A stretch of DNA of 56,376 nucleotides from Hydrogenophaga sp. (lineage in GTDB: Bacteria > Pseudomonadota > Gammaproteobacteria > Burkholderiales > Burkholderiaceae_C). The position numbers and the translations under genes were made by a program. The notes under the pieces were generated by a model. It saw nothing but the letters and a program-made list of their open reading frames with translations, was not told the DNA's origin and did no database searches. The stretch lies in NCBI GenBank assembly GCA_018993155.1, contig JAGKSX010000018.1:1-56376 (forward strand), read 5' to 3'. Position 1 is the stretch's first letter; each line of letters starts with the position of its first letter. Below are positions 21,386 through 54,589 of the stretch, piece by piece.

Positions 21386-23068
21386 ATGAATGCACTCAGG
21401 CTCATGCGCGACAAGCTGCCCTCGGGGAAAGCCTTGGGCGGCGCCTTGCGTCCTGAACTGATGTCCCGCCTGCTGCCGGTCGTGCTGCTGGCGATCGGCA
21501 TCACGGCCCTGGTGATGATGTTCCTGTGGAACGACCAGGCCAGCTACAAGCCGGTGTTCGGTGCGCGCGAGCAGGTGCCGGTGTCGGACATGATGGCCGC
21601 GCTGGATGCCGAAGGCATCGCCTACCGGCTGCACCCCGAGTCGGGCCAGGTGCTGGTCTCGTCCTCCGACCTCGGCCGCGCCCGCATGCTGCTGGCGGCC
21701 AAGGGCGTCACCGCGCGCCTGCCCGAGGGGCTGGAACTGATGGACAAGAACGACCCGCTGGGTGTCACGCAGTTCGTGCAGGACATCCGCTTCCGCCGCG
21801 GCCTGGAAGGCGAGCTGGTGCAGAGCATCACCTCGATGGACGCCGTGCGCTCGGCCCGCGTCCACCTGTCCGTGGCGCGCTCCTCGACCTTCGTGCTCAA
21901 CGCCCAGGACAAGAGCACGGCCTCGGTGGTGTTGAGCCTGCACCCCGGCCGCACGCTGGGCAACGAGCAGATCGCCTCCATCATCCAGCTCGTGGCCGGC
22001 AGCGTGTCCAACCTGGACCCGTCCCGCGTGAGCGTGGTCGATCAGGCCGGCCGCCTGCTCTCCGCGCGCGTCGATGTGAAGGACGGCATCGACCAGGGCA
22101 GCTTCGCCGACGAGGCGGTGCGCAAGGCGCAGAACGACATCCTGCAGAACGCGCACCAGCTGCTGCAGCCGCTGCTGGGCGCGGGCAACTACAACGTGAG
22201 CGTGGCGGTCGAGCTCGGTCAGGACCGCGTGCAGGAAACCCAGGAGCGCTACGGCGATGCGCCCAAGGTCACCAACGAAGCGTCGCGCGAGGAGAGCAAC
22301 CGCGACCGCGTGGCGCTCGGTGTGCCGGGCTCGCTCAGCAACCGCCCGGCCACACCGGCGCCGGACGCGAACGAGGCTCCCAACACCGCCGAGCGCAGCG
22401 CCGTCACCCGGCAGTTCGCCTACGACCGCAGTGTCACCACCATCCAGCGCGCGCGCGGCCAGCTCAAGAAGCTCAGTGTGGCCGTGGTGCTCAACGAAGG
22501 TGCCGCCCCCGGCGGTGCCGCCAGCTGGGGGCCTCAGGAAATCGCGCGCATGGAAAGCCTGCTGCGCGGCGGCCTGGGCATCAACGCCGAGCGCGGCGAC
22601 CAGCTTGTGGTCTCGGCGCTGGCCTTCCCCGGTGCAGCACCCGCCGTGCCCTGGTACGCGGAACGCGAGACCGTGTTCGAGTTCGTGACCTGGGGCCTGT
22701 ATGCCCTGGGCGCGCTGCTCGCCTACTTCCTGCTGGCGCGCCCGCTGCTGCGCCTTCTGCGTGAGCGCGGCAAGCCCGCCGCCGAAGTCGGCATGACCGA
22801 CCTGATCGCCCTCGAAGGCGGCCCTGGCGCAGCCGAGGAGGCGCCCGCGCTGGCCCAGCCGTCTCAGGCCGTTGCGGCGCTGCCCAACAAGGTCCAGCCG
22901 TCGGCCTCCGGCGCGATGGTGCCGCTGCTCGCCGACTACGACCTGCCGCCGCCCGGTTCGCCGGTGGAGGTGCTGGTCAATCACTTGAAGGTGCTGGCCC
23001 AGAAGGAGCCCGAGCGCGTCGCCGAAGTTGTCAAACAGTGGGTCCAGAAAAATGCCGCCATCACCTGA
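21386..23068 (+). CDS. fliF: Flagellar MS-ring protein FliF
   Basis: The 560-residue protein forms the MS ring of the basal body in the inner membrane. An N-terminal membrane segment (about 27–46, LLPVVLLAIGITALVMMFLW) is followed by ring-building domains with the typical DLGRARMLLAAKG and KASVVLSL-like stretches. A second membrane segment lies near 430–455, then the cytoplasmic FliG-binding tail. The ATG at 21386 has an AGGA box at 21374–21377. The gene opens a tightly overlapping fliFGHIJ operon, and its 3' end overlaps fliG by 17 bp. Confidence 0.96.
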   Translation: MNALRLMRDKLPSGKALGGALRPELMSRLLPVVLLAIGITALVMMFLWNDQASYKPVFGAREQVPVSDMMAALDAEGIAYRLHPESGQVLVSSSDLGRARMLLAAKGVTARLPEGLELMDKNDPLGVTQFVQDIRFRRGLEGELVQSITSMDAVRSARVHLSVARSSTFVLNAQDKSTASVVLSLHPGRTLGNEQIASIIQLVAGSVSNLDPSRVSVVDQAGRLLSARVDVKDGIDQGSFADEAVRKAQNDILQNAHQLLQPLLGAGNYNVSVAVELGQDRVQETQERYGDAPKVTNEASREESNRDRVALGVPGSLSNRPATPAPDANEAPNTAERSAVTRQFAYDRSVTTIQRARGQLKKLSVAVVLNEGAAPGGAASWGPQEIARMESLLRGGLGINAERGDQLVVSALAFPGAAPAVPWYAERETVFEFVTWGLYALGALLAYFLLARPLLRLLRERGKPAAEVGMTDLIALEGGPGAAEEAPALAQPSQAVAALPNKVQPSASGAMVPLLADYDLPPPGSPVEVLVNHLKVLAQKEPERVAEVVKQWVQKNAAIT

Positions 23069-24077
23069 TCAGGAAGGGGCCGACAGCGGCTCGCTCTCGG
23101 CCACCGAACAGGCTGCCATCGTGCTCCTGAGCATGGGCGAGCAGCCGGCCGCGGCTGTGTTGCAGCACCTCTCGCGCGAGGAACTGCTGGACGTCACCCA
23201 GGTCATGTCGCGCATGAGCGGCATCAAGGTGGACATGGCCCGCACGGCCCTGCAGCGCTTCTTCGACGACTACCGCGAGCAAAGCGGCGTGCACGGCGCC
23301 TCACGCGCCTACCTCAAGAGCTCGCTGGACATGGCGCTGGGCGCGAACATCGCCAGCAGCGTGCTCACCCGCATCTACGGCGACGCCATCCGGCCGAAGA
23401 TGGCCCGGCTGCAGTGGGCCTCATCGCGCTGGATCGCCGACCGCATCGCAGCCGAGCACGAGCACATGCAGGCGGTCTTCCTGGCCTTCCTGCCCTCGGC
23501 ACTGGCCAGCGAGGTCATCGAGCGGCTGCCCGAGGAAAACCGCGACGCGGTGCTGATGCAGATCGCCCAGCTCGGCCATGTGGAGCACGACATCCTGCGC
23601 GAACTCGAGGTGCTGGTGGATGCGTACCTGGCGAGCCTGGAAACCCAGAGCGCCACGGTGGAGGGCGTGCGCCAGGCCGCCGAGATCATCAACCGCCTGC
23701 CCGGCAACCGCCAGAAGATGGTCGAGCAGATGCGGGCGCGCGATCCGGCCGTCATGGCTCGGATCGAGGTCAGCATGTACGACTTCTTCATCCTCTCGCG
23801 ACAGACCGAGGAAGTCATCACCCGCATCATCGAAACCTCGCCGCTGGACCTGTGGGCCGTGGCGCTCAAGGGTGCGGACCCCGAGGTGCGCCGCAAAGTG
23901 CTGCAGGCCATGCCGAGGCGCCAGGCGCAATCCTTCGAAGACACGCTGCGTCGCACCGGACCGGTACCGCTCAGCCGCGTCGAGCAGGCACGCGCCGAGA
24001 TCATGCGCGAGGTCAAGGCGCTGGTGGACCGCGATGAGATCCAGATCCAGCTGTTTGCCGAGGCGGTGGTCGCATGA
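23052..24077 (+). CDS. fliG: Flagellar motor switch protein FliG
   Basis: The 341-residue protein fits FliG length and order. The N-terminal domain that binds FliF (TEQAAIVLLSMGEQPAAAVL) is followed by the middle domain (RLPEENRDAVLMQIAQL) and a C-terminal torque-generating domain with charged helices (EVRRKVLQAMPRRQAQSFED). It couples stator activity to rotation at the cytoplasmic face of the MS ring. The ATG at 23052, inside the fliF 3' end, is chosen. It overlaps fliH by 4 bp (ATGA). Confidence 0.95.
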   Translation: MPPSPDQEGADSGSLSATEQAAIVLLSMGEQPAAAVLQHLSREELLDVTQVMSRMSGIKVDMARTALQRFFDDYREQSGVHGASRAYLKSSLDMALGANIASSVLTRIYGDAIRPKMARLQWASSRWIADRIAAEHEHMQAVFLAFLPSALASEVIERLPEENRDAVLMQIAQLGHVEHDILRELEVLVDAYLASLETQSATVEGVRQAAEIINRLPGNRQKMVEQMRARDPAVMARIEVSMYDFFILSRQTEEVITRIIETSPLDLWAVALKGADPEVRRKVLQAMPRRQAQSFEDTLRRTGPVPLSRVEQARAEIMREVKALVDRDEIQIQLFAEAVVA

Positions 24078-24784
24078 AGATCTACCGGCCGCACCGCTTC
24101 CCGCCGCTGAGCCGCTTCACGCCGGTCCAGGCGCTGTCGCCCGGCGACGCCGAGAGCGCGCAGGCGGCGCTGGCCGAAGGCTTTCAGCAGGGCATGGACC
24201 GCGGCTACCGCGAAGGCTATGACAGCGGGGCGGAGCGCGGCCAGGCCGAAGGCCGCCTGCAAGGGCTCCAGGAAGGCCGAGACGAAGGGCTGGCCGAGGC
24301 CCGTGCCGCCGTGCTGGCCCGCTGGCAGGTGTATGCGGCGCCAGTGGACGCCGCGCTCGCGGCCCTGCACCAGGCCCAGGACGATTACCAGAAGGCCCTG
24401 CGCAGCGAGGTCGTCGATCTGGTGGGCAAGGTGGCCCGGCAGGTGATCCGCGCCGAGCTCACGCTGCAGCCCGCGCAGTTGCTGGCCCTGGTCGAGGAGT
24501 CCCTCAAGAGCATGCCGCCTGCCACCGGCGAGATCGAGGTGTTCCTCAACCCGGAAGACCTGGAGCGCATCCGCGACCTGGACCCCGTGCGCGCCCGCAC
24601 GTGGAAACTCATGGCAGACAGCCGCCTCGACGCCGGTGAATGCCGGGTGCACTGCGGCGGCCAGGAGGCCGACGCCGGCTGCCGCCACCGGCTGCAGGCC
24701 TGCATGGAACAGATCGGCGCGCAGCTGCTCGACGCCGAGCCTGCCGCAGGCGAGGCGGGCGCGCCCACGGAGCTCGCCGCATGA
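24074..24784 (+). CDS. fliH: Flagellar export ATPase regulator FliH
   Basis: The 236-residue protein carries the hallmark Gly-rich heptad-like segment of FliH (GFQQGMDRGYREGYDSG at about 36–52 and GLQEGRDEG). A helical region follows, then a C-terminal domain homologous to V/F-ATPase stalk subunits (EVVDLVGKVARQVIRAELTL region). It anchors and regulates the FliI ATPase at the export gate. It is coupled to both neighbours by ATGA overlaps. Confidence 0.93.
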   Translation: MKIYRPHRFPPLSRFTPVQALSPGDAESAQAALAEGFQQGMDRGYREGYDSGAERGQAEGRLQGLQEGRDEGLAEARAAVLARWQVYAAPVDAALAALHQAQDDYQKALRSEVVDLVGKVARQVIRAELTLQPAQLLALVEESLKSMPPATGEIEVFLNPEDLERIRDLDPVRARTWKLMADSRLDAGECRVHCGGQEADAGCRHRLQACMEQIGAQLLDAEPAAGEAGAPTELAA

Positions 24785-26088
24785 TTGCCGAGCGCCTCAA
24801 GTCCGTTGAACTCACCGACGTGCCGGTCTCCGTTCCCACGGGGCGGCTGGTGGGCGTGGCGGGCATGCTGCTGCACGTCAAGGGCTGCCAGCTTCGCATC
24901 GGCCAGCGCTGCCGCATCGAAGCCGGACCGGGCGAGTGGGTCGAGGCGCAGGTGGTGGGCTTTCGCGACGAGACCACCTCGGTCATGCCCTTCAAGAAAA
25001 CCGACGGTCTGAGCGCCGGCGCGCGGGTGCTGCCGATGGCGTCGGACAGCGAGCTGCTGATCGGCCCGTCCTGGCTGGGTCGCATCGTCAACGGCCTGGG
25101 CGAACCCATGGACGGACTGGGGCGCCTGGGCGGCGAGCACCGCCTGGGCAGCCAGCCCCCGCGCGTGGACCCCTTGCGCAAGCGGCCGGTGCACGAACCG
25201 CTGGATGTCGGCGTGCGCGCGATCAACGGCCTGCTCACCCTCGGCCGCGGCCAGCGCGTGGGCCTGATGGCCGGCAGCGGTGTGGGCAAGAGCGTGCTGC
25301 TCGGCCTGGTCACGCGCCAGACCGTGGCCGACGTGGTCGTGGTCGGGCTCATCGGTGAACGGGGCCGCGAGGTCCGGGAGTTCATCGACCTCTCCCTCGG
25401 CCCGGCCGGCCTGCGCCGTGCGGTGGTCGTGGTCGCGCCGGCCGACGAATCGCCACTGATGCGCCTGCGCGCCACCGAGCTCTGCCACTCCATCGCCGCG
25501 CACTACCGCGACCGGGGCCAGAACGTGTTGCTGCTGCTGGACTCGCTCACCCGGTACGCCATGGCGCAGCGCGAAGTCGCCCTCTCGCTCGGCGAGCCGC
25601 CGGCCACGCGCGGTTATCCGCCGTCCGTGTTCAGCGTGCTGCCGCAGCTGGTGGAAAGCGCGGGCAATGGGGAGGGCGAGGGCAGCATGTCCGCCATCTA
25701 CACCGTGCTGGCCGAAGGCGATGACCAGCAGGACCCGGTGGTGGACACCGCGCGCGCCATCCTGGACGGCCACATCGTGCTCTCGCGCGCCCTGGCCGAG
25801 CGCGGCCACTACCCGGCCATCGACATCGGCCAATCCATCAGCCGCTGCATGTCGCTGGTGGCCGGGCAGGCGCACATCGCCGCCGCGCGCTCCATGAAGG
25901 CGCTGCTGTCGAGCTACCAGCAGGTGCGCGACCTGCTGCCCATGGGCGCCTACGTGCCGGGCGCCGACCCGCAGGCCGACCGGGCCGTGAGCCTGTACCC
26001 GCGCATCGAGGCCTACCTGCACCAGGGCGTCAAGGAGAGCGCGCCCCTGACCGACTGCCTGCGCGACCTGAGCGAGCTGATGGCATGA
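24781..26088 (+). CDS. fliI: Flagellum-specific ATPase FliI
   Basis: The 435-residue protein is an F1-beta-like type III export ATPase. Walker A is AGSGVGKS (164–171), Walker B is VLLLLDSLTRYA, and the type III ATPase signature PPATRGYPPSVFSVLPQL is present. It energises unfolding and entry of flagellar export substrates with FliH and FliJ. The ATG at 24781 overlaps the fliH stop and gives the usual N-terminus. Confidence 0.97.
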   Translation: MIAERLKSVELTDVPVSVPTGRLVGVAGMLLHVKGCQLRIGQRCRIEAGPGEWVEAQVVGFRDETTSVMPFKKTDGLSAGARVLPMASDSELLIGPSWLGRIVNGLGEPMDGLGRLGGEHRLGSQPPRVDPLRKRPVHEPLDVGVRAINGLLTLGRGQRVGLMAGSGVGKSVLLGLVTRQTVADVVVVGLIGERGREVREFIDLSLGPAGLRRAVVVVAPADESPLMRLRATELCHSIAAHYRDRGQNVLLLLDSLTRYAMAQREVALSLGEPPATRGYPPSVFSVLPQLVESAGNGEGEGSMSAIYTVLAEGDDQQDPVVDTARAILDGHIVLSRALAERGHYPAIDIGQSISRCMSLVAGQAHIAAARSMKALLSSYQQVRDLLPMGAYVPGADPQADRAVSLYPRIEAYLHQGVKESAPLTDCLRDLSELMA

Positions 26089-26522
26089 ACCCGCCCACCT
26101 ACCTCGTCACCCTCGGCCACCTGGTCACCGCGCGCGAGCGCGAGCAGGAGCGCATCGGCGCCGAGCTGAGCCGCCAGCAGTCGGTGCGCGAGCGCATGCA
26201 GCGCAGCGTGGATCGGCTGCACGCCATCTGCGACGCCGCCGGGCCCTCGGGCGCCCAGCCCTTCCTGCTGGCCGCGAACTGCGCGGCCTACAAGCAGTCG
26301 GTGATGGGCCTGGCGCAGGAGCAGCAGCGCAGCCTGGAGCGCCACAGCGCCGAGGTGGAGGCTACCCGCGTGGCCCTGCACGCCGCCTTTCGCCAGCGCG
26401 AAGGTGTGGCCCAGGTGCTGCACAAGCGCGAGAGCGAATGGCGCCTGGCCGGCGAAGTGCGGGCGCGAAAACAGCTCGACGACGTGGCCCTGACCGTCTG
26501 GCGCCGGACCACCCCGCGATGA
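26085..26522 (+). CDS. fliJ: Flagellar export protein FliJ
   Basis: The 145-residue protein is almost entirely helical and rich in Arg, Glu and Gln, as expected for the FliJ coiled-coil (gamma-subunit-like) component of the export ATPase. Sequence conservation in the family is low, so the call relies on length, coiled-coil character and position after fliI. It overlaps fliI by 4 bp. An 89-bp gap follows, with an inverted repeat CCCGGT (26557–26562)/ACCGGG (26569–26574). Confidence 0.88.
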   Translation: MNPPTYLVTLGHLVTAREREQERIGAELSRQQSVRERMQRSVDRLHAICDAAGPSGAQPFLLAANCAAYKQSVMGLAQEQQRSLERHSAEVEATRVALHAAFRQREGVAQVLHKRESEWRLAGEVRARKQLDDVALTVWRRTTPR

Positions 26523-26611: not shown

Positions 26612-27973
26612 ATGGACATCAACCCGACCCAGATGGCGACCCAGCTCGCCACCATCTACACGCAGGGCACGCAGGACATCATCACGCGCGACAGCAAGAG
26701 CGCCGATGCCACCAACGCGGGCTACACCCGCCTGCGCTCGGCCCTCTCGGCGTTCAACACCGCGATGGACGCGCTCTCGGGCAAGAAGGGCCTGGTCAAG
26801 AACAGCGTGAGCTTCGCCGGCAGTTCGGGCGCCACCGGCACGGCCTCGGCTTCGGCCCAGCCCGGCACCTACAGCTTCTTCGTCGAGGCCGTGGCCTCCA
26901 ACCACCAGATCGCCTTCGCCGACCTGCCCGCCGTGCCGGTGGCCACCGGTGGTCCGCTGGTGATCCAGCAGGCCGACGGCAGCAGCTTCAACGTCAACCT
27001 GCTGATGGCCGACGCCGATGGCAACGGCACCATCTCGCAGACCGAGATCGCGCGCGCCATCAACCAGGCCTCGGGCAACGCGGGCAAGGTGACGGCCCAG
27101 GTGGTCAACACCGGCAACGGCTCCCAGCTGATCCTCTCGTCCGGCGCCAGCGGCGAGGACGGCGCGATCACCGTCGACGCCAGCGGCCTGCCCGCCGGGG
27201 CGCTCAAGAACGCCCTGAGCGCCACGCCCAACGAGCTGGCGCAGGCGCGCGACGCGGTGGTGTGGCTGGGCGACCAGGGCACGGGCGTGCGCATCCAGCA
27301 GGCCAGCAACACCGTGACCGCCATCGACGGCGTGACCCTCAGCCTCACCCGCGCCATGTCCACGGGCGACGCCCCCGCCACGCTGACCGTGGCCGCCGAT
27401 GAGGCCGGCACCGCCGACAACGTGCGCAGTTTCGTGACCGCCTTCAACACCTTGCAAGGCGTCATCAACGACCTCACCAAGACCGACATCAACGCGGCCG
27501 CACGAGGCGTCTTCGCCAGCGACAGCAGCGTTCGCGCGCTGCGCACCCGACTCAACGACATCCTGCGCCAGGACTTTGGCGGCGTGCGCATGTCCGAGCT
27601 GGGCATCTCCACCGACCGTCAGGGCGCGCTCACCTTCGACGCGGCCAAGCTGAAGAAGACGCTGGACGTCAAGCCCGACGCGCTGGACAAGGCCTTCGGC
27701 TCGTCCAGCCTGTCGGCGCCCTCGGGCGTGTTGGGCTCGATGAACACCTACCTCAAGACCTGGCTCGACTCGGGCAACGGCCAGATCAAGCGCCGCCAGG
27801 ACTCGGTGCAGACCCTGCAGCGCGACATCACCCACCGCCAGGCGCGCCTGGACGAGCAGTTCGCGATGTCCTACGAGCGCTACCTGCTGCAGTTCACCCA
27901 ACTTCAATCCCTGATGGGTCAGCTCAACCAGACCTCGGGCATGTTCGGATCGTCCACCTCGGCCACCGCCTGA
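26612..27973 (+). CDS. fliD: Flagellar filament cap protein FliD (LafB type)
   Basis: The 453-residue protein has FliD N- and C-terminal helical domains around a variable centre. The N-terminus shows the family pattern of alternating helices ending in an FAGSSGATGTASASAQPGTY-type stretch. The C-terminus is a coiled coil (QTLQRDITHRQARLDEQF). It caps the growing filament and assists flagellin polymerisation outside the cell. A GGAG box precedes the ATG. The following genes fliS, fliT, fliK, fliL, fliA, motA and motB run in the order seen in lateral flagellar operons (lafBC…STU). Confidence 0.93.
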   Translation: MDINPTQMATQLATIYTQGTQDIITRDSKSADATNAGYTRLRSALSAFNTAMDALSGKKGLVKNSVSFAGSSGATGTASASAQPGTYSFFVEAVASNHQIAFADLPAVPVATGGPLVIQQADGSSFNVNLLMADADGNGTISQTEIARAINQASGNAGKVTAQVVNTGNGSQLILSSGASGEDGAITVDASGLPAGALKNALSATPNELAQARDAVVWLGDQGTGVRIQQASNTVTAIDGVTLSLTRAMSTGDAPATLTVAADEAGTADNVRSFVTAFNTLQGVINDLTKTDINAAARGVFASDSSVRALRTRLNDILRQDFGGVRMSELGISTDRQGALTFDAAKLKKTLDVKPDALDKAFGSSSLSAPSGVLGSMNTYLKTWLDSGNGQIKRRQDSVQTLQRDITHRQARLDEQFAMSYERYLLQFTQLQSLMGQLNQTSGMFGSSTSATA

Positions 27974-28016
27974 GGACCGACCGCACCGCCCGTCACCACC
28001 CCAGACGAGGACTTCC

Positions 28017-28403
28017 TTGACATACGACGCATACGAGAGCTACGCCCAGGTCGACCTGGGCGCCCAGACGGCACAGGCCTCGTCCGTGCAGCTGGTGCTC
28101 ATCCTGATGAACGGCCTGCAGGACGAGCTGGCGCGCGCGCGCGCCCACATCGAAGGCAGCCGCTTCGAGGCCAAGGCGCGCAGCCTCGACAAATGCGTCG
28201 GCATGCTCAATGGCCTGTCCAGTTCGCTGGACACGGACGCCGGTGGCGAGGTGGTCGCGCAGGTCGCGCAGGTTTACGACTACTGCGCCCGCCGCCTGCA
28301 CGAGGCCGGGGTCCGGCTCGACGTGGGCATGGTCGACGAAGTGGGCCGTCTGCTGCGCACGCTGCAGGAAGGCTGGGAAGGCATGCAGGCCCACCATGGA
28401 TAA
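28017..28403 (+). CDS. fliS: Flagellin export chaperone FliS (LafC type)
   Basis: The 128-residue protein has a four-helix FliS profile. It opens with YESYAQVDLGAQTAQASSVQLVLILMNGL, in two parts, then an RSLDKCVGMLNGLSSSLD helix and a GGEVVAQVAQVYDYCARRL stretch. FliS binds the flagellin C-terminus before export. The start codon is TTG at 28017, supported by a GAGGA box at 28007–28011 with 5-nt spacing. It overlaps fliT by 8 bp. Confidence 0.93.
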   Translation: MTYDAYESYAQVDLGAQTAQASSVQLVLILMNGLQDELARARAHIEGSRFEAKARSLDKCVGMLNGLSSSLDTDAGGEVVAQVAQVYDYCARRLHEAGVRLDVGMVDEVGRLLRTLQEGWEGMQAHHG

Positions 28404-28707
28404 GCGCCAGGCGTTCCTGGACCTGGCGGCGCGCCTGCGCCACGAGACGCAGGCCGCCGACTGGGCCGCGTTGGCCCGCACCGATCAACAGCTCGCCGCG
28501 CTGCTCGCCCGCCTGCCCGCCGTGGCGGCACTGAGCGCGCCGGAGCAGGCCGCGCACCACGCACTGCGGCAGGCGCACGAGGCCGCGCGCACCGCCTGCG
28601 CGCAGGCCCATGCCCAGGCCCACGAGCGCCTGCAGGCGCTGTGCGACCAGCGCACCGGCTGGACCGCCTACGCCCTGAGCACCGACCTGCAGGAGGCCTC
28701 GCCATGA
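28396..28707 (+). CDS. fliT: Putative flagellar chaperone FliT (LafD position)
   Basis: The 103-residue, all-helical protein lies between fliS and fliK, the position of FliT/LafD. Sequence conservation in FliT is low, so the assignment rests on size, helicity and context. FliT binds FliD, and in enterobacteria FlhDC, linking assembly to transcription. The ATG at 28396 lies inside fliS, and its stop overlaps the fliK start (ATGA). Confidence 0.72.
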   Translation: MDKRQAFLDLAARLRHETQAADWAALARTDQQLAALLARLPAVAALSAPEQAAHHALRQAHEAARTACAQAHAQAHERLQALCDQRTGWTAYALSTDLQEASP

Positions 28708-29753: not shown

Positions 29754-29788
29754 AGCGCCACCGACCGACCGCCACCGAGCCTGCCCGC

Positions 29789-30241
29789 ATGAAAAAAGTC
29801 AAACTGATCTCCCTCGTCGTCGGCGTCGCGCTGCTCACCGCCGTGGGCGGCGGCGCGGCGGCCTACTGGCTGCTGCGCCCGGCCAAGCCGGCCGTGGCCG
29901 GCGCCCCGGCGCCCGACAAGCGCGAGTACCGCTACGTCACGCTGGACAAGGTCATCGTGATGCTGCGTGGGCGCGAAGGCGGCCCGCTGACCAACTACCT
30001 CGCGGTGGACCTGGTGTTCAAGACCCCCGTGGCCGACGAGGCGCAGACCAAGCAGCAACTGCCCAAGCTGCGCTCGATCGCGGTCCGCTCGCTCTCCGAG
30101 TTCACGCTCGAACAGGCCGGCATGCTCACCATCCCCGCGCTTTCCGACCATGTGCAGAAGGCCTACGTCGAGAGCTTCAAGTCCGAGGCGCGGGCCATGC
30201 CCTTCGGTGAAGTGATGATCGGCAAGCTCATCATCGAGTGA
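29789..30241 (+). CDS. fliL: Flagellar basal-body protein FliL (LafF type)
   Basis: The 150-residue protein has one N-terminal transmembrane helix (about 5–28, LISLVVGVALLTAVGGGAAA) and a periplasmic FliL domain (YVTLDKVIVML, LAVDLVFK and a terminal FGEVMIGKLIIE). FliL surrounds stators and supports torque. Its stop overlaps the GTG start of fliA by 4 bp. Confidence 0.92.
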   Translation: MKKVKLISLVVGVALLTAVGGGAAAYWLLRPAKPAVAGAPAPDKREYRYVTLDKVIVMLRGREGGPLTNYLAVDLVFKTPVADEAQTKQQLPKLRSIAVRSLSEFTLEQAGMLTIPALSDHVQKAYVESFKSEARAMPFGEVMIGKLIIE

Positions 30242-45762: not shown

Positions 45763-45956
45763 GAGACCTCCCATGGAAGGTGGGATGGTGCGCTTCGTCA
45801 GAGCCCTCGTCAACGCCGCTCAGCCAGCTTTCTCGGTGCCAACGGATCTATTCGAAAAAATTCTGCTGCCGCATTTAAGGACCCGCTCCAGCAGGTCGCT
45901 CTGTACTGGTGAGGTCGTCGATACCCGGCGTCCCAACCGATCAAGGAGTACCCACC

Positions 45957-46939: not shown

Positions 46940-47905
46940 ATGAACATCGATCGCGTCACCGCCGCGAGCCTCACGCCGCAGCAGCGCCATCCCGCCCGGG
47001 ACGGCGCGCCGCGACCGGCCGTGGGCGAGCACATTGCGCTGCGCTACGAGGGGCGCGACGAGCACGGCGTGACGCTGCGGCGCGATCGCGGCGCCACGCT
47101 GCGCCTGCCCCCGCAAGGCGCCTGGGCCCAGGGCCTTTCGGTGGGCGACATGGTGTGGATGCGGGTGCTGGCGACCGAGCCTTCGCTCGAACTCGAGTTC
47201 GTCGCGCCCCGGCCGGGCGTGCCGGGCGCCCTCGCATCACCCGACGAACTGCCCGCGATGCGCCTGGACCAGGCGGCCCTGCGGGCCTACCAGTGGAAGC
47301 TGCCGCCGCCCGCCGAGCTGGCGGCCGCATGGCGCGTCATCCTCACGTCCCGCCATATGGACCTGGGCCTGCAAGGGCTGGCGCTGCTGGAGCGGCCACC
47401 GCTGGCGCTGCCCGGCCCGCACACGGCGCCCGGTTCGCCGCTGCCGGAGCGCGGCGAGCCCGGTCACTGGCGTTTTCACCTGTACGCCTGGGGCGGCATG
47501 AGCGTGGCGCTGCGCGTGGCCGCGGCGCCGCGGTGGGAGCGACGCAAGCCTCGGCCACGGGAAGAGGGGCCCGCCGGCCTGGAGGTGGCCCTGACCCTGC
47601 CGCAGGCCGGCCCGATCACGGTGCAGTTGCTGTGGGTGGGGGGCGGCCTGGCCATGGCCCTGATTCCCCGACAGGCTCAGGTGCTGCCCCTGCTGCGCGA
47701 GCTGATGCCGGCGCTGGCCGAGGCCCTGGACCGCCTGGGCGCGCCGCTGGTGAAGGTGCAGCTGGGCACGCCGCTGGCACCCCTGCCGCCAGGGGGCTTG
47801 AACTACCGACCCGGCCCGACCTCGCCGCTGTTGCTGCACGCCCTGGCCGAGGTGGTAAGCAGCGTCACGCGGCACTGGCCGGTGCCGCCGGACGCCTTGG
47901 CCTGA
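46940..47905 (+). CDS. Hypothetical protein with a FliK-like C-terminal domain
   Basis: The 321-residue protein has a GGAG box 7 nt before its ATG. Residues about 212–275 read VALTLPQAGPITVQLLWVGG, then LRELMPALAEALDRLGAPLV and KVQLG. This resembles the hook-length control C-terminal domain, in which strands are followed by a helix and a final strand. The N-terminal part (about 25–110) may form a small beta domain. It lies 7 bp from the convergent flhA. It could be a second hook-length or secretion-switch factor. Confidence 0.65.
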   Translation: MNIDRVTAASLTPQQRHPARDGAPRPAVGEHIALRYEGRDEHGVTLRRDRGATLRLPPQGAWAQGLSVGDMVWMRVLATEPSLELEFVAPRPGVPGALASPDELPAMRLDQAALRAYQWKLPPPAELAAAWRVILTSRHMDLGLQGLALLERPPLALPGPHTAPGSPLPERGEPGHWRFHLYAWGGMSVALRVAAAPRWERRKPRPREEGPAGLEVALTLPQAGPITVQLLWVGGGLAMALIPRQAQVLPLLRELMPALAEALDRLGAPLVKVQLGTPLAPLPPGGLNYRPGPTSPLLLHALAEVVSSVTRHWPVPPDALA

Positions 47906-47912
47906 AGGCCGC

Positions 47913-50000
47913 TCAGCCCAGCGAGCCGACGATGGAGACCTCGCGCTGCTCGGGCACCTCGTTGTAGGACAGCACGTGCAGGCCCGGCGCGAACAGCCGG
48001 GCGTAGCGCGCCAGCAGAGGGCGCACCTGGGGCATCACCAGCAGCAGCGGCGTGGCCGCCATCTGCTTCATCTGCTCGCGCGCGATGGGCATGTGGGACT
48101 GCAGCTGGTTGAGCAGGTTGGGGTCGATGGGGAAGTTGTCCAGCGCCACCTTGCCGGCGCTGCGCGCCTGGTTGAGCGCGCCCAGCAGCAGGTTCTCCAG
48201 CTCGCCGCCCATGTTGAAGGCCTTGATCTCGCCGGTCTGGCCGCACAGGGCGCCGACGATCTGGCGGCGCAGCGTGCAGCGCACCTCGGCGGCCAGCAGC
48301 AATGGGTCCTTGGTCTGCTCCGCGTTGTCCAGCAGGGTGGTGGCCACGGGCACGATGTCCTTGAGCGACACGTTCTCGGCCAGCAGGGTGCGGAACACCT
48401 TGAGCAGCATGCTGTGGGTGAAGGCCTTGTCCAGCGCCGCCGACAGCTTGGGGGCGAGCGCGCCCAGCCGCTCCATCAGCGCGTGGACGTCGTCGTGCTG
48501 GAACAGCTCGCCGAGGTTCTCGCGCATCAGCTTGGTCACGTGCGTGGCGATCACCGTGGGCACGTCCACCACCTGGTAGCCCATGCCCAGGGCGTGCGCC
48601 TTCTGCGCGGGCTCGATCCAGACCACCGGCATGCGGAACGACGGGTCGGCGCCCGGGATGCCGTCGATGTCGCCATACACCTGGGGCCCCGGGATGGCCA
48701 TGAGCCGGTCGGCGAACACCTCGGCCTGCGCCAGCACCGTGCCGTGCATGAGCACCGAGTAGAAGTTGGGCTTGAGGCCGAGGTCGTCGCGCGCGCCGAT
48801 GGGCGGCAGCACCACGCCCATGCCTTCGCTCAGGGTCTGGCGCACGCCCTTGAGGCGCTTGGCGAGCACGGCGCCTTGCCCGGGGTCGATCAGGCCCACC
48901 AGCTTGTAGCCCACCGACACGGCCACCGGCTCCACCACCGGCAGGCTTTTCCAGTCGATCTCGGGCTGGCTCTCGGTCAGCAGGGCCACCTGCACCTGGG
49001 CGGTGGGGTCGGGCGGGGCCACCACCACGCGCGAGCCCATGCGCCACGCCACGTAACCGAGCACGCCGGCGAAGGCGAAGAAGATCAAGGTGGGCATGCC
49101 CGGGATGGCGCCCAGCAGGGCCATCAGGCCGGCCGCCCCGTACAGCACGCCCGGCGAAGCCAGCAGCTGGCCGGTGATCTGCTTCTCGATGTCGCCCGAC
49201 TCGCTGGCGCGGGTGACGATGATGGCCGCGGCGGCGGAGAGCAGCAGCGCCGGGATCTGCGCGACCAGACCGTCGCCGATGGTCAGCAGCGCGTACAGCT
49301 TGAACGACTCGCCCAGCGAGAGGTCGTGCATGAAGCTGCCGATGAGCACGCCGCCGATGAGGTTGATCAGCAGGATCAGGATGCCGGCGATGGCATCGCC
49401 CTTGACGAACTTGGAGGCGCCGTCCATGGCGCCGTAGAAGTCGGCCTCGCCGGCCACTTCCTTGCGGCGCGTCTGGGCGCCTTCCTGGTTGATGAGGCCG
49501 GCGTTGAGGTCGGCGTCGATCGCCATCTGCTTGCCGGGCAGGGCGTCGAGCGTGAAGCGCGCCGACACCTCCGAGATGCGCTCGGCGCCTTTGGTGACCA
49601 CCAGGAAGTTGATGATCATCAGGATCACGAACACCACCAGGCCGACCACGAAGTTGCCACCGATCACCACGTGGCCGAAGGCCTCGACCACCTGGCCGGC
49701 CGCGTCCGTGCCCTGGTGGCCGTTGAGCAGCACCACCCGCGTCGAGGCCACGTTGAGCATCAGGCGCAGCAGCGTGGCGCCCAGGATGACGGTGGGGAAG
49801 ATGGAGAAGTCCAGCGGCCGGCGGCTGTTGACCGCGACCAGAATCACGATCAGGGAGAGCACGATGTTGAACGTGAACAGCACGTCCAGCAGCAGCGGCG
49901 GCAGCGGCAGGATCACCATCGTCAGCATCGCCAGCAGGAAAAGCGGCGCGGCGTAGCGCATGCGCTGCAGGTCGGACCAGAGTGACTTCAGGGCGTTCAT
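47913..50000 (-). CDS. flhA: Flagellar export gate protein FlhA
   Basis: The 695-residue protein has eight N-terminal membrane segments (LPPLLLDVLFTFNIVLSLIV region) and the conserved FHIPEP-family stretch SARFTLDALPGKQMAIDADL followed by NAGLINQEGAQTRRKEV. A large cytoplasmic C-terminal domain binds chaperone–substrate complexes. It is the last gene of the reverse-strand fliE–flhA operon and 13 bp after flhB. Confidence 0.97.
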   Translation of the reverse strand: MNALKSLWSDLQRMRYAAPLFLLAMLTMVILPLPPLLLDVLFTFNIVLSLIVILVAVNSRRPLDFSIFPTVILGATLLRLMLNVASTRVVLLNGHQGTDAAGQVVEAFGHVVIGGNFVVGLVVFVILMIINFLVVTKGAERISEVSARFTLDALPGKQMAIDADLNAGLINQEGAQTRRKEVAGEADFYGAMDGASKFVKGDAIAGILILLINLIGGVLIGSFMHDLSLGESFKLYALLTIGDGLVAQIPALLLSAAAAIIVTRASESGDIEKQITGQLLASPGVLYGAAGLMALLGAIPGMPTLIFFAFAGVLGYVAWRMGSRVVVAPPDPTAQVQVALLTESQPEIDWKSLPVVEPVAVSVGYKLVGLIDPGQGAVLAKRLKGVRQTLSEGMGVVLPPIGARDDLGLKPNFYSVLMHGTVLAQAEVFADRLMAIPGPQVYGDIDGIPGADPSFRMPVVWIEPAQKAHALGMGYQVVDVPTVIATHVTKLMRENLGELFQHDDVHALMERLGALAPKLSAALDKAFTHSMLLKVFRTLLAENVSLKDIVPVATTLLDNAEQTKDPLLLAAEVRCTLRRQIVGALCGQTGEIKAFNMGGELENLLLGALNQARSAGKVALDNFPIDPNLLNQLQSHMPIAREQMKQMAATPLLLVMPQVRPLLARYARLFAPGLHVLSYNEVPEQREVSIVGSLG

Positions 50001-50013
50001 GGCGGGCTTCGGG

Positions 50014-51138
50014 TCAGGTCAGGTGGGCGGGGACGTGGAGGTCGGCGGGCAGCGCGGGCTGCGCCTTGCGGCCGCCCTCGCGGTAGGCGCGCAGCTGGAG
50101 CACATGGCGCAGCACGAGCGCCACGGCCTGGTACAGCGCGGCCGGGATCTGCTGCTTGACCTGGCTGGTGTTGTAGATGGCGCGCGCCAGTGGCGGCAGC
50201 TCCAGCACCTCCACCTTGTGTTCGGTGGCCAGGGCGCGGATGTAGAGCGCGAGTTCGTCCACGCCCTTGGCGATGACGTAGGGCGCTTCGGCCTTCTGCG
50301 TGTCGTACTTGAGCGCCACCGCGTAGTGCGTGGGGTTGACGATCACCACGTCGGCGGTGGGCACGATCTTGCGCACGCTGCGCTTGGCGATCTGCTGCTG
50401 CAGCTGGCGGATGCGCTGGCGCACCTCGGGCCGGCCTTCGCTGGTCTTGTGCTCTTCCTTCAGGTCGCGCTTGCTCATGCGCTGCTCGCGCAGGAAGACG
50501 AAGCGCTGCAGCGGCAGGTCGATCAGCGCGAACACCACGAACACGCTGCACAGGGTGAAGATGCCGGTGATCGCCAAGCCCATGGCCTGCGCCAGCGCCT
50601 CGTGCAGCGGCAGGCCCTGCAGCCGCAGGAAGGCTGGGCGGGTGGAACTCGCGGTGTGCCAGAGCACGCCACCCAGGCAGGCCGCCTTGGCGGCGGTGGT
50701 GGCCCAGTCGATCAGGTGCTTGGGCTTGGTGATGCGGCTGAAGTAGCTCAGCGGGTTCAGCCGCTCCAGCTTGGGCATGAACTGGTCGGTGCTGAGCACC
50801 CAGCCGCTGGGGAACAGCGTGAACGCGGCCACGATGAGGGGGATGAGCGCCAGGGGCAGCACCATCTTGCCCACCAGCAGGATCGCCGGCTTGAAGGCGT
50901 TGGACCACAGGTTGTCCAGCGCGGCCTCGCCGTCGAGCACCACGAAGCCCAGGCCGAACAGGTGCTTGAAATCCGCCAGGTACGAGGGCGCCAGGATGAC
51001 GATGAGCTGCAGGCTGCAGACCAGGCCCACGGCAGTGGCCACGTCCTTGGAGCGGGCGACCTGGCCCTTCTCGCGCGCCTTGCGCAGCTTCTGCGCGCTG
51101 GCGTCTTCGGTCTTTTCCCCGGTGTCCTGCTCGGCCAT
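50014..51138 (-). CDS. flhB: Flagellar export switch protein FlhB
   Basis: The 374-residue protein has four membrane segments and a cytoplasmic domain with the autocleavage site Asn268-Pro269-Thr270-His271 in VIVNPTHYAVALKYD. Cleavage there is required for the change from hook to filament export, triggered by FliK. The C-terminal tail after about 350 is basic and Pro-rich. It lies 3 bp after fliR. Confidence 0.97.
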   Translation of the reverse strand: MAEQDTGEKTEDASAQKLRKAREKGQVARSKDVATAVGLVCSLQLIVILAPSYLADFKHLFGLGFVVLDGEAALDNLWSNAFKPAILLVGKMVLPLALIPLIVAAFTLFPSGWVLSTDQFMPKLERLNPLSYFSRITKPKHLIDWATTAAKAACLGGVLWHTASSTRPAFLRLQGLPLHEALAQAMGLAITGIFTLCSVFVVFALIDLPLQRFVFLREQRMSKRDLKEEHKTSEGRPEVRQRIRQLQQQIAKRSVRKIVPTADVVIVNPTHYAVALKYDTQKAEAPYVIAKGVDELALYIRALATEHKVEVLELPPLARAIYNTSQVKQQIPAALYQAVALVLRHVLQLRAYREGGRKAQPALPADLHVPAHLT

Positions 51139-51141
51139 GGC

Positions 51142-51915
51142 TTACCTCACCACCATCATCTGTTCGAGCATGCCCAGCACGCGCGAGGTGAGGCGCACGT
51201 ACTGCTCGGGGATGTAGCGCACCAGGCCGGAGAGCATGAACAGGCCGAACACGATGATCAGCGAGAAGCCGAGCGAGAACAGGTTGAAGGCCGGCGCGAT
51301 GCGGTTGAGCAGGCCGAAGCCGATCTGCACCACCAAGGCCGAGAAGATCACCGGCAGGGCCAGCAGCAGGGCGGCCGAGAAGACCCACGCCACCTGCAGC
51401 GGCAGCATCTCCAGCGCCACCTGCGGGATGCCGCCGCCCACGGGCCAGGATTTGAAGCTCGATCCCATCACGCCGTTGAAGACCAGGTGGCCTTCGACGG
51501 CGAAGAACACCAGGATGCTCATGACGTAGAGCAGGGTGGAGACCACGTCGGAGGACACGCCGCTCATGGGGTCGTTCATGACCGCCATGGACAGGCCCAT
51601 CTGCGACGAGGCCATGAAGCCCAGCAGGGTGAAGACCGCCATGATGAACTGGAAACACAGGCCAATGATCAGGCCGATCACCACCTGCTCGATGGTGGTG
51701 ACGATGCCGAGCAGGGAGAAGGGGGTGATCGGCGCCGGGGGCTGCGCCACCGGCAGCAGCACCACGGCCAGCGCCAGCGCCAGCAGCACGCGCACGGTGA
51801 CGGGCACCATGTTCTCGCCCACCACCGGCATGAACGAGAGCATGGCCAGCAGCCGCACGAAGGGCCACCACATCGCCAGCAGCGTGGCCAGCAATTGACC
51901 GAAGACCGGCTCCAT
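51142..51915 (-). CDS. fliR: Flagellar export membrane protein FliR
   Basis: The 257-residue protein is hydrophobic with six membrane segments and the FliR-type opening WWPFVRLLAMLSFMPVVGE. The middle has SMAVMNDPMSGVSSDVVSTL. With FliP and FliQ it builds the export channel. The ATG at 51915 is chosen; a GTG at 51924 is possible. Confidence 0.95.
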   Translation of the reverse strand: MEPVFGQLLATLLAMWWPFVRLLAMLSFMPVVGENMVPVTVRVLLALALAVVLLPVAQPPAPITPFSLLGIVTTIEQVVIGLIIGLCFQFIMAVFTLLGFMASSQMGLSMAVMNDPMSGVSSDVVSTLLYVMSILVFFAVEGHLVFNGVMGSSFKSWPVGGGIPQVALEMLPLQVAWVFSAALLLALPVIFSALVVQIGFGLLNRIAPAFNLFSLGFSLIIVFGLFMLSGLVRYIPEQYVRLTSRVLGMLEQMMVVR

Positions 51916-51925
51916 GGGGCTCACG

Positions 51926-52195
51926 TCAGATCGCCAGCTGCGCGGCGCGTTCGAAGATGGCGATGCAGTAGTCCATGAGCTTGCTCGCCAGCCACTGCCC
52001 CATGAAGATGATGGCCAGCAGCGTCACGATGAGGCGGGGCAGGAAGCTCAGCGTCTGCTCGTTGATCTGCGTGGCGGCCTGGAACAGGCTCACCACCACG
52101 CCCACCACCAGGCTGGGGCCGATGAGCAGCGTGACCAGCACCACCACCAGCTTCAGGCACTCGGCCACCAGTTCGACGGCGATCTCGGGCGTCAT
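51926..52195 (-). CDS. fliQ: Flagellar export membrane protein FliQ
   Basis: The 89-residue protein has two membrane helices and the conserved FliQ stretch VVSLFQAATQINEQTLSFLP (about 35–54). It overlaps fliP by 4 bp (ATGA on the reverse strand). Confidence 0.96.
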   Translation of the reverse strand: MTPEIAVELVAECLKLVVVLVTLLIGPSLVVGVVVSLFQAATQINEQTLSFLPRLIVTLLAIIFMGQWLASKLMDYCIAIFERAAQLAI

Positions 52196-52986
52196 ATCGC
52201 GCGCACGCTGGTCACCAGCGTGTTGACCGTCAGCGTCCAGCCATCCACCAGCACGAACAGCAGCAGCTTGAGCGGCAGGGAGATCACCAGGGGCGAGAGC
52301 ATCATCATGCCCATGGCCATCAGCACGGACGAGACCACCAGGTCGATGACCAGGAAGGGAATGAACAGCATGCAGCCGATCATGAAAGCCGTCTTGAGCT
52401 CGCTCAGCACGAAGGCGGCGAGCTTGACGGTGAAGGGGTGCAACGCGGGGTCGGTGACGGCGGGCGCGCCGGCCAGCGTGGCGATCTGTTCGAGCGCGGG
52501 CTTGCTGGTCTGCGCGAGCATGAAGCGCGAGAGCGGCGCCTCGGCGTTCTCCAGCGCCTGGGCCAGGGTGATCCTGCCCTCGTCGTAGGGTTGCAGCGCG
52601 TCGGTCCAGATGCGCTCGCCCACCGGCCGCATCACCAGCAGGGTGAGGATGAGCGCGATGCCGGTGATGATGCGGTTGGGCAGGCCCTGCTGCAGGCCCA
52701 GCGCCTGGCGCAGCAGCGAGAGCACGATGACGAAGCGGGTGAAGCTGGTCATCATGAGCATCATGGCCGGGAGCAAGCCCAGCAGCGTCATGATGATCAG
52801 GATCTGCGTGCGAACCGTGTAGTCGGTGGTGCCGCCGCTGGTGTTGCTGCTGAAGATCTGCAGCCCTTGACCCCCCGCCGGCGCCTGGGCCTGCGCCAGC
52901 GCATCGGTGCTGGCCAGCCCCGCGAGCGCTGCCAGCGTGACGGCGCCCAGGAGCAGGGCGCCGGGTCGAAGGGCGCGTGGCGTCAT
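52192..52986 (-). CDS. fliP: Flagellar export channel protein FliP
   Basis: The 264-residue protein has a cleavable N-terminal signal (about 1–31) followed by four membrane segments. FliP signatures include MMTSFTRFVIVLSLLRQALG, SELKTAFMIGCMLFIPFLVI and MGMMMLSPLVISLPLKLLLF. The frame stays open far upstream, but the ATG at 52986 gives the family N-terminus and overlaps the fliN stop. No fliO gene is found between fliN and fliP. Confidence 0.96.
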   Translation of the reverse strand: MTPRALRPGALLLGAVTLAALAGLASTDALAQAQAPAGGQGLQIFSSNTSGGTTDYTVRTQILIIMTLLGLLPAMMLMMTSFTRFVIVLSLLRQALGLQQGLPNRIITGIALILTLLVMRPVGERIWTDALQPYDEGRITLAQALENAEAPLSRFMLAQTSKPALEQIATLAGAPAVTDPALHPFTVKLAAFVLSELKTAFMIGCMLFIPFLVIDLVVSSVLMAMGMMMLSPLVISLPLKLLLFVLVDGWTLTVNTLVTSVRAI

Positions 52987-53369
52987 GCGGCCAGGCTGTC
53001 CAGGTTCAGGTCGGAGATCTCGACCACTTTCAGGCCGTAGTTTTCGCCGGAGACCACCACCACGGCCTTGCCGATGGACACGCCATTGACCTTGATGGTC
53101 AGCGGCTCGCCAGCCAGCGCATCGAGTTCGACCACGCTGTCGGTGCTCAGGTGCGCCAGGTCTTCCAGCGACACCCGGGTCGAGCCCAGCTCCAGCGTGA
53201 GCGTGACCGGGATCTTGCGCATGAGGCTGCCCATGCCCAGCCGGGGTGCCGGGGCCTCGAACGCCACCGGTTCCGCCGCGGGTTTCTCGGCCGGGCCGTC
53301 CATGTAGGACAGCAGTTCGTCGATGCCGCCGGTGGCGTCGGCTGGGGAGGGCGCGGTGAGGTTTTCCAT
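52983..53369 (-). CDS. fliN: Flagellar motor switch protein FliN
   Basis: The 128-residue protein ends in a SpoA-type C-ring domain (about 55–125) with MRKIPVTLTLELGSTRVSLE and PLTIKVNGVSIGKAVVV. The N-terminal ~40 residues contain GGIDELLSYMDG (14–25), which resembles the CheY-binding peptide normally seen at the start of FliM. It follows fliM by 6 bp. Confidence 0.95.
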   Translation of the reverse strand: MENLTAPSPADATGGIDELLSYMDGPAEKPAAEPVAFEAPAPRLGMGSLMRKIPVTLTLELGSTRVSLEDLAHLSTDSVVELDALAGEPLTIKVNGVSIGKAVVVVSGENYGLKVVEISDLNLDSLAA

Positions 53370-53375
53370 GGCGGT

Positions 53376-54260
53376 TCAGACTTCTTGGAGGGAGGTGAGA
53401 CAGAGCTTGCCGCCGTGCTCGACCACGCTGGCCTTGAGCACCGGGCTGTCCTGGATGCGCACGGTGGCCAGGCCGAGGTCGACCGGCAGCACGCTGCCAG
53501 GCCGCAGCGCCATCACGTCGCCCAGCGACAGCGGCTTCTCCAGCAGCCGCACGTCGAGCAGCATGGGCAGCTGCCGGCGCAGGGTGGCCGGGTCGATGGG
53601 TTTTTTCGCGGGCTTGCGCCGGGGCGGCGCCAGGGCGCGCAGCAGGGCGTCCAGGGCGCAGTCTTCCAGCACCCAGTTCAGCCGGCCCATGGGGCTGCCC
53701 TGGGCGTCGAGCAGGTCGCAGCCCAGGAACAGGGCCTGGGCATCGGTGGGGCCGCCGAAGCCATGGCGCTCGGTGTCGAGCACGGCCGGCGCGGTGTCCG
53801 GGGCGGTGCGCTCCTGCAAGCCGCTGAGCAGGCGCGCCGAGAGGCACTGCACGAGGCGCTTGCCCACCTGCGCGGCGAGCCGCTGTTCGGTGGCGGTTTC
53901 CGAGCGCTGCAGCGTTTCCTGATCCAGCTGGTTCCAGTTGCTCATGCCCAGGCGGCGGGCCAGCAGCGCGAGCGCGGCCTGGCGATCGATGGAGAAACCC
54001 AGGCGGCCGGCGGCCGTGTCGAACAGGAACCAGCGCAGGGGCCTGTGCGGATGGACGCGGCGCGAATGTTCGATGCGCCCCAGCTGGAAGCCCGGTGTGG
54101 TGCGGGTGGCGAACAGGCTTTCCACGGCGGCCGCCAGATCGGCGTGGAGGACCTCGCAAAAACGGTCCAGCACGTGAACGGGGCGGCCCAGTTCGCAGGT
54201 GTCGATCACCGTCATGAGCGCCCCGCGGGCGGGCCCGATGATCTTCGTGGTCGCGGGCAT
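53376..54260 (-). CDS. fliM: Flagellar motor switch protein FliM, divergent
   Basis: The 294-residue protein lies between fliE and fliN and has a SpoA-type C-terminal domain (about 205–290, LPMLLDVRLLEKPLSLGDVM then LRPGSVLPVDL). The middle domain is divergent. The N-terminus (MPATTKIIGPARGALM) does not contain the EIDALL-like CheY-binding peptide common to primary FliM proteins. It is shorter than typical FliM (~330). This fits a lateral (LfiM-type) switch protein. Confidence 0.87.
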   Translation of the reverse strand: MPATTKIIGPARGALMTVIDTCELGRPVHVLDRFCEVLHADLAAAVESLFATRTTPGFQLGRIEHSRRVHPHRPLRWFLFDTAAGRLGFSIDRQAALALLARRLGMSNWNQLDQETLQRSETATEQRLAAQVGKRLVQCLSARLLSGLQERTAPDTAPAVLDTERHGFGGPTDAQALFLGCDLLDAQGSPMGRLNWVLEDCALDALLRALAPPRRKPAKKPIDPATLRRQLPMLLDVRLLEKPLSLGDVMALRPGSVLPVDLGLATVRIQDSPVLKASVVEHGGKLCLTSLQEV

Positions 54261-54265
54261 GCGGC

Positions 54266-54589
54266 TCAGATCGGCAGCTTGATGAGGTCGTCGAGGCCCG
54301 AAACGACCTTGTTGCGCACCTGCATCATCATTTGAAAGTTGAGCGAGGCTTCCTGGCTCTTGAGCATGGCACCGACCAGGTTGTCGCTCTGGCCCGTCTC
54401 GACCGCGCTCACCATGGCCTGGGCCTCGTGGCCCTTGTCGTCCACCGAGCGGATCAGGCCGCCGATGTGGTCGGTGAACGAGCGGGCGCCCTGGCCCCCG
54501 CCGAGCGGCAACGCCTCGGCGATGTGCGACTCGCTGGCCTTGATCTGCGCAAGGCTGCTCTGGATGTTCAAAAGCATGGAGCTGTTCAT
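54266..54589 (-). CDS. fliE: Flagellar MS-ring/rod junction protein FliE
   Basis: The 107-residue protein shows the FliE C-terminal pattern NLVGAMLKSQEASLNFQMMM followed by QVRNKVVSGLDDLIKLPI. It links the MS ring to the rod. It starts the reverse-strand fliEMNPQR-flhBA operon, 5 bp before fliM. In Flag-2 clusters fliE usually precedes fliF, so its place here is a rearrangement. Confidence 0.95.
   Translation of the reverse strand: MNSSMLLNIQSSLAQIKASESHIAEALPLGGGQGARSFTDHIGGLIRSVDDKGHEAQAMVSAVETGQSDNLVGAMLKSQEASLNFQMMMQVRNKVVSGLDDLIKLPI

Follow-up and report, generated by a model that had tools for sequence, protein, structure and literature searches.

Lateral flagella of the Flag-2/Laf type are known from gammaproteobacteria, including Vibrio parahaemolyticus, Aeromonas and Escherichia coli. 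V. parahaemolyticus has separate sigma-28 factors for its two flagella and is reported to need the lateral one (PMC8630636). The activator gene at the place between fliM and fliE carries the name lafK (PMC6993521), and in E. coli Flag-2 a sigma-54 activator is located at this position. The lateral cluster of the gammaproteobacterium Plesiomonas shigelloides lacks lafK and is reported to be fully functional (PMC4481668). Relatives of the lateral flagellin LafA occur in many betaproteobacteria with no lateral-specific FlhDC, according to work on Burkholderia dolosa (PMC5773237), and a putative lateral flagellum has been reported for Delftia (PMC9045143). The contig JAGKSX010000018.1 of Hydrogenophaga sp. 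(contig C10 of a 4.9-Mb draft genome in 176 contigs; analyzed over its whole 56,376 bases and hereafter called the window) encodes a near-complete lateral-type flagellum at 21.3-54.6 kb, as recognized by family-model scans of open reading frames (ORFs). The cluster belongs to a betaproteobacterial lateral clade and exists beside an ordinary primary flagellum encoded elsewhere in the genome. Taken as a whole, we consider it likely that the window holds a betaproteobacterial lateral flagellum without LafK, with its own sigma-28 promoter type and early genes activated in trans, next to a plasmid-type FlhDC-like gene pair with a present or former role in conjugation.

The window cluster shares with the lateral systems of V. 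parahaemolyticus and Aeromonas and with E. coli Flag-2 the FlhA clade, the gene content, a LafA-type flagellin, LafW and a LafS-type FliA, as well as the gene order fliD-S-T-K-L-A-motAB. It differs from these systems by the absence of LafK, the joining of fliE to fliM and a conserved lateral promoter before the filament genes. The promoters of E. coli lafA and flgK look similar to those of the window, and the promoter type may be common to both. The lack of lafK is a feature common to P. shigelloides and the window cluster. Compared to the lateral flagella of the B. dolosa type, the window cluster is probably of the same kind. It adjoins a plasmid-type block, and neither the clade-wide absence of LafK nor the promoter type appears in the available parts of the B. 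dolosa and Delftia reports. Across the literature surveyed, LafK absence in betaproteobacteria or a separate lateral sigma-28 promoter type is not described, which is weak evidence of novelty given the incomplete coverage of LafS.

The placement of FlhA bears out a proposal made from the sequence alone that a true lateral (Flag-2/Laf-type) system exists here in a betaproteobacterium. FlhA is present twice in the genome, once in the window and once on contig C13. A maximum likelihood tree of 75 FlhA proteins (quick search with Shimodaira-Hasegawa-like approximate likelihood ratio test, SH-aLRT, and no bootstrap) places the window protein outside the ordinary primary Comamonadaceae clade. It falls inside a lateral clade of 41 rows together with Vibrio, Aeromonas, Pseudomonas and E. 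coli Flag-2 and, within this clade, in a betaproteobacterial subclade of 28 rows (SH-aLRT 100 for both). The C13 protein groups with primary Comamonadaceae FlhA in the same tree. The existence of a second, primary system is confirmed by the neighbors of this second FlhA, with flhB-, flhF- and flg-type frames recognized by eye and a second FliA found by tblastn. A primary flagellin was not found in the draft genome. Full-length lateral FlhA at an identity of at least 69% occurs in 12 of 150 genomes of the family, including the one studied here, and full-length lateral FlhA in 4 of 67 genomes of the genus. FlhA fragments in two family genomes (G107, G134) and one genus genome (G176) were left unassigned.

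Lateral loci of gammaproteobacteria and betaproteobacteria differ most clearly in LafK. Searches by tblastn with the E. coli Flag-2 activator placed LafK next to fliE in 11 of 12 gammaproteobacterial lateral loci. The same search found LafK neither in the window nor in any of 13 named betaproteobacterial lateral loci; fliE is visible in 11 of these (L196, one of the 13, is the same contig as that of genome G036). Outside these loci, the sole other match among the stretches longer than 6 kb covered by this search was at L107, with 40% identity and beyond the cluster of G084. The matching protein is 63% identical to an activator that the Hydrogenophaga genome also encodes. Genome-wide, the best scores in 15 betaproteobacterial genomes with lateral flagella peak at 235.6 bits, our genome included. 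The best matches in four gammaproteobacterial control genomes reach 307-404 bits, and other activators of these controls, outside the group at 278-404 bits, score up to 231 bits. LafK is absent from the betaproteobacterial branch as sampled because none of the 13 loci contains it and all 15 genomes score below the best matches of the gammaproteobacterial controls. LafK would hence be a marker of most gammaproteobacterial systems rather than of the whole lateral clade, given that it is missing in the 13 loci and reported absent in P. shigelloides.

The genome encodes ten strong sigma-54 activators, and the idea that one of them is LafK was rejected. The best two, on contigs C55 and C111, reach only 235 bits; identity to LafK is 50% in an alignment of 240 residues for the first and 42% in one of 311 residues for the second. 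The C55 activator has a long extra N-terminal region and its alignment to LafK covers the ATPase part only. Six of the ten activators were scanned against NCBIfam and none of these reached a cut-off. Among relatives, eight fliM-fliE gaps revealed no candidate LafK frame by eye, and none was found in such gaps by tblastn. As a separate observation, the betaproteobacterial gaps of roughly 0.6-1.1 kb seem to contain a recurring repeat-like sequence, with peptides common across genera in meaningless frames (by eye). The sequence-only reading was thus right that the window encodes no LafK, and nothing scoring like LafK exists in the genome. Its premise that known lateral systems use LafK is contradicted by the published exception of P. 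shigelloides (PMC4481668) and does not hold for the betaproteobacterial lateral loci studied here. The absence is clade-wide in the sampled betaproteobacterial loci and not special to the window.

The filament genes of the betaproteobacterial lateral clade seem to carry a lateral-specific promoter of the sigma-28 type, as judged from pattern scans. Upstream of the flagellin, flgK and fliD genes of the window, no canonical sigma-28 site was found. The best weak canonical matches before fliC in the window and in genomes G157, G034 and G075 had another sequence in common, from which a lateral pattern was built; a slightly wider variant was used for the counts per gene. The consensus is ATTTAAGT-N14-G[TC]CGCCTTGT. 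Over 24 betaproteobacterial loci (1.26 Mb), the first pattern has 38 matches, compared to a mean of 10.85 in base-shuffled sequence, and 29 of the 38 precede fliC, flgK or fliD. The wider pattern, across 22 loci, stands before 18/21 fliC, 11/12 flgK and 7/13 fliD genes. Upstream of the other 23 gene groups it matches 1 of 311 windows (expectation 0.0047 per window), and it is absent before fliF (0/20) and flhA (0/22). Flagellin loci were returned for 15 genomes. The pattern precedes 15 of 16 distinct lateral flagellins (14 genomes) and none of 25 primary flagellins (12 of these genomes). A strict canonical sigma-28 pattern shows the reverse, with 0/16 lateral and 9/25 primary flagellins, where 0.01-0.015 are expected by shuffling. 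The sites of the window lie before flgK (41467..41492, plus strand) and before the flagellin gene (45875..45900, plus strand) and are of the type TTAAG...GTCGCC. Such a promoter code predicts transcription starts just downstream of GTCGCCTT at both genes.

Differences in the sigma factor match this separation of promoters. Region 2.4 of a sigma factor reads the -10 element. This region is DWRPR..RQ in all six aligned betaproteobacterial lateral FliA proteins and in E. coli LafS. It is DWMSRGSRK in two betaproteobacterial primary proteins and DWVPRSVRR in E. coli FliA. A promoter difference would explain how two sigma-28 factors can serve two flagella separately, as in V. parahaemolyticus. In the E. 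coli Flag-2 locus, flgK has a pattern match and lafA looks similar by eye; the other 11 gammaproteobacterial stretches, mostly without late genes, contain two further matches.

Gene content, the FlhA phylogeny, the lack of LafK, the likeness of the block to plasmids and the distribution of the promoter pattern are observations, from which we infer the following roles for each sigma factor and activator. The early operons would be started by an activator acting in trans, with the canonical FlhDC of the primary system as the likeliest candidate, perhaps at promoters of the sigma-70 type. The LafS-type FliA of the cluster would then turn on flagellin, flgK and often fliD through the lateral pattern. 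The primary FliA, which pairs with a -10 element of the CCGATAA type, would read the lateral promoter poorly, and we propose that the two filament regulons are therefore kept apart. Acting in trans is likely because no regulator family is common to more than 3 of 24 betaproteobacterial lateral loci; response regulators, histidine kinases and LysR-type regulators each occur in three loci.

A rival reading holds that the primary system's canonical FlhDC turns on both flagella and makes a dedicated regulator in the lateral cluster unnecessary. We give this reading slightly less than an even chance. The lack of a common regulator family fits such sharing, and canonical FlhC was found in 10 of 13 genomes checked. 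A TA[GA]AAT element stands before 10 of 22 betaproteobacterial fliM genes and before 3 of 88 other betaproteobacterial upstream windows, and the authors of the B. dolosa study suggest shared regulators (PMC5773237). Shared control is harder to reconcile with the failure to find canonical FlhC in our draft, in G036 and in G127, and no FlhDC box was recognized by eye upstream of fliE, fliM or flgB. The canonical flhC of our genome may fall in an assembly gap, because contig C13 ends 143 bases before flhB and flhC of the same-genus genome G114 is located about 4.5 kb upstream of flhA. In three further genomes (G075, G034 and G007), canonical flhC is found twice with equal scores, 1.2-2.3 kb apart. 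Duplicated flhC may break assemblies, which could explain missing flhDC in drafts. Beside the lateral cluster of G157 (L162, 5139-6798) we also noted genes for a weakly response-regulator-like protein and a LuxR-type regulator, neither of which the window shows.

More broadly, we judge the balance to tip just in favor of betaproteobacterial lateral flagella forming a LafK-free, perhaps sigma-54-free branch, in which the lateral sigma-28 reads its own promoter (ATTTAAGT-N14-GTCGCCTTGT) and two sigma-28 regulons operate without cross-talk. The code is possibly derived from a common ancestor with E. coli Flag-2, because lafA and flgK promoters look alike there. Several points weigh against this account and the mechanism built on it. 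All functional statements rest on sequence, and the tree program warned of possible long-branch joins among the FlhA proteins. The gammaproteobacterial locus L223 (Pantoea, with partial FlhA) has no LafK, and this stretch contains no fliE either. Strong sigma-54 sites occur in none of 110 betaproteobacterial upstream windows, but gammaproteobacterial windows are mostly negative too, with sites in just 3 of 39 (2/3 fliD, 1/2 flgB, 0/34 others), hence this contrast is weak. The genomes G036 and G127, which share the missing canonical FlhC with our draft (3 of 13 genomes), are drafts at 99-100% completeness. The lateral pattern is absent before motA and flgM (0/11 each), missing before fliD in 6 of 13 loci, window included, and missing before the flagellin gene of G069. 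Because the window and a few relatives served to derive the pattern, the sites in these loci are not independent, and the loci used to discover the motif overlap in part with those used to test it. Columns beyond the pattern are also skewed, with T before it at 76% and TT after it at 70-78%.

The region upstream of the cluster appears to have a separate history. FlhDC-family pairs are known to control tra operons on mobile elements, such as AcaCD of IncA/C and SetCD of SXT/R391, and a pair of this kind is also found on the chromosomal island SGI1 (PMC4605294). An FlhDC-like pair also exists in the window, as the sequence-only reading had noticed, though only the C-like half is recognizable by profile. 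The FlhC-like gene (16342..17004, plus strand) encodes a C-x2-C...C-x2-C cluster and aligns with canonical FlhC in hhalign at E 1.6e-4 over 158 columns with a probability of 50.6%. The FlhD-like gene (15723..16325, plus strand) is marginal, at E 0.052 and a probability of 1% against canonical FlhD. Swapped controls gave E values of 0.26 and 0.47. Neither protein has a match to Pfam FlhD or FlhC at E 0.1, and structure predictions of both are low in confidence (mean predicted local distance difference test, pLDDT, of 38 and 41). The JS666 homologue carries the annotation FlhC family.

The pair at 15.7-17.0 kb would be part of a regulatory block of plasmid type that was inserted downstream of a tRNA-Cys gene (14709..14782, plus strand). 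Homology of lon-tRNA-Gly-tRNA-Cys with the genus stops at the 3' end of this tRNA, which marks the insertion point; the match ends at 14782-14786 in five of six genus genomes and at 14639 in the sixth. Three genus genomes (G114, G164, G195) instead have a tRNA-Leu within a few hundred bases after tRNA-Cys, and the G181 contig ends just after tRNA-Cys, hence is uninformative on insertion. The block comprises a divergent repressor-like gene (14848..15777, minus strand, start possibly at about 15582, no Pfam match), the pair, orf3 (17174..17791, plus strand), whose relatives adjoin traD on plasmids, orf4 (17804..18583, plus strand), which corresponds in position to a hypothetical gene of the plasmid block and aligns in DNA only in its first part, and a PAS sensor histidine kinase gene (19406..21238, minus strand). 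The nearest copy is on a PBL-H3 plasmid typed as conjugative, where a D-C-orf3-hypothetical-kinase block matches the window at 15.7-21.2 kb (identity of 88% for C, 77% for D, 66% for orf3 and 74% over 382 residues for the kinase). This nearest copy is not at the head of a tra operon. TraD and type IV secretion genes accompany the second PBL-H3 copy, and also the pairs of pBPS33-1 (typed non-mobilizable), JS666 plasmid 1, G199, G171 and G169. The repressor-like gene is 47% identical to the gene beside the second pPBL-H3 pair, 44% to that of pBPS33-1 and 32% to that of JS666 plasmid 1, and has no counterpart beside the first pPBL-H3 pair. The window block would thus mix both pPBL-H3 arrangements, because its repressor-like gene resembles those of the second arrangement. 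The plasmid with both pairs (L160, pPBL-H3_B2-1) also has an annotated AcaB-family regulator at 27190-28053, near a PRTRC system. The only good canonical sigma-28 site in a scan of the window, a near-perfect promoter (12/13) at 15534-15560 on the plus strand, is located about 165 bases upstream of the FlhD-like gene and within the repressor-like gene; among 12 shuffles of the window, one contained an equally good site.

The sequence-only reading had placed the pair in the regulator slot and taken it to stand in for LafK. Recruitment of the pair as class-I activator of the lateral cluster in LafK's place is very improbable in our assessment, even though the pair lies 4-5 kb before fliF, with the histidine kinase in between, its reading frames are intact, the C-like half is related to FlhC (see above) and canonical FlhC was not found in the draft. 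The place of LafK is between fliM and fliE, and the pair is upstream of fliF in a block matching plasmids. Of the genomes searched, 2 of 150 in the family and 6 of 67 in the genus encode the C-like protein; these counts include our own genome, and the G169 copy in the genus set reaches just 27% identity. A lateral FlhA accompanies it in our genome only. In the three relatives of the same genus whose lateral FlhA is nearest, nothing matches the pair, LafK is missing across the betaproteobacterial clade where the pair is absent, and most copies elsewhere head tra operons or stand with tra genes. A plasmid-derived regulatory block that landed beside the lateral cluster would be the simplest account. 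By its relatives, the pair most likely has, or had, a role in conjugation control of the AcaCD/SetCD type. Compared to AcaCD, SetCD and SGI1, the window pair stands beside flagellar genes, and no tra genes were found among the window ORFs scanned. Plasmid origin is compatible with the pair also acting on fliF.

The lateral cluster and the plasmid-type block could also have arrived as one element at tRNA-Cys, with the cluster as cargo of a conjugative element. Both are located downstream of the insertion point, and G152 likewise shows signs of integration at tRNA-Cys. Following lon, no flagellar gene occurs in about 17 kb of G152 or 5.8 kb of G157, where the lateral clusters are on other contigs. 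We regard joint arrival as rather doubtful. The window contains no repeat of the tRNA-Cys 3' end longer than 14 bases, and the block edges share no 12-mer. The contig ends at 56376. In G157, different genes precede fliF of the lateral cluster, and the plasmid-type block is lacking there. The tRNA-Cys 3' end of G152 recurs about 1.9 kb downstream of the tRNA as a near-copy of 47 bases (85%; L180, contig C1, at about 1590-3593). A small element may have integrated there, and within the genus tRNA-Cys is possibly a hot spot of integration.

The means by which cells with two flagella keep their components separate are only partly understood. A LafK-free branch with a separable promoter type would make the separation of parts testable with simple reporters. 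The separate origin proposed for the block also cautions against assuming that an FlhDC-like pair adjoining flagellar genes regulates them, because conjugative plasmids use the same family.

The gene content confirms a near-complete cluster, with gene starts across the window being estimates and fliT, fliN and flgA called by position and similar frames in relatives, with no model match. On the plus strand, fliF (21386..23068, ORF open from 21269) matches its family model, and DNA similarity to the G157 lateral locus begins at 21443. It is followed by fliG, fliH, fliI and fliJ (23028..26522), with FliH (PRK13386) and FliI (PRK07196) above their cut-offs and FliG and FliJ below theirs. The fliD, fliS, fliT, fliK, fliL (weak) and fliA genes (26612..30963), the last encoding the LafS-type sigma-28 with the lateral region 2.4, precede motA and motB in the LafT/LafU place (31002..32931). 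MotA is above the MotA1 cut-off, and MotB has LafU as best model at 182 bits, below its cut-off of 383 bits. FlgJ is split in two, with the muramidase part encoded after flgM and flgN (32954..34396, family models) and the rod part within the run flgB-C-D-E-F-G-H-I, flgJ, flgK and flgL (35098..43851, family models). The flgA-like gene (34407..35201, minus strand) is divergent from flgB. The gene after flgL (43866..44933, plus strand) is a LafW homologue (E 1e-6 by blastp; E 3e-10 by profile comparison with the gene that follows flgL in E. coli). Profile scans of the window ORFs turned up no LafZ-type protein, and no search aimed at LafZ was read out. The fliE-M-N-P-Q-R-flhB-flhA genes (47913..54589, family models) lie on the minus strand and are grouped, as the sequence-only reading had noted for fliM to flhA, with fliE immediately preceding fliM and nothing LafK-like in between. 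A methyltransferase-type gene (44914..45813, minus strand, model scan) separates lafW from the lateral flagellin gene fliC/lafA (45957..46838, plus strand, ATG at 45957). The flagellin starts with MLSLHTNYASL, in agreement with the HTNYASL segment recognized earlier, and its best model is LafA_2 at 360 bits, 5 bits short of the curated cut-off of 365. Between the flagellin gene and flhA lies a gene of unknown function (46940..47905, plus strand), which occurs in some relatives too.

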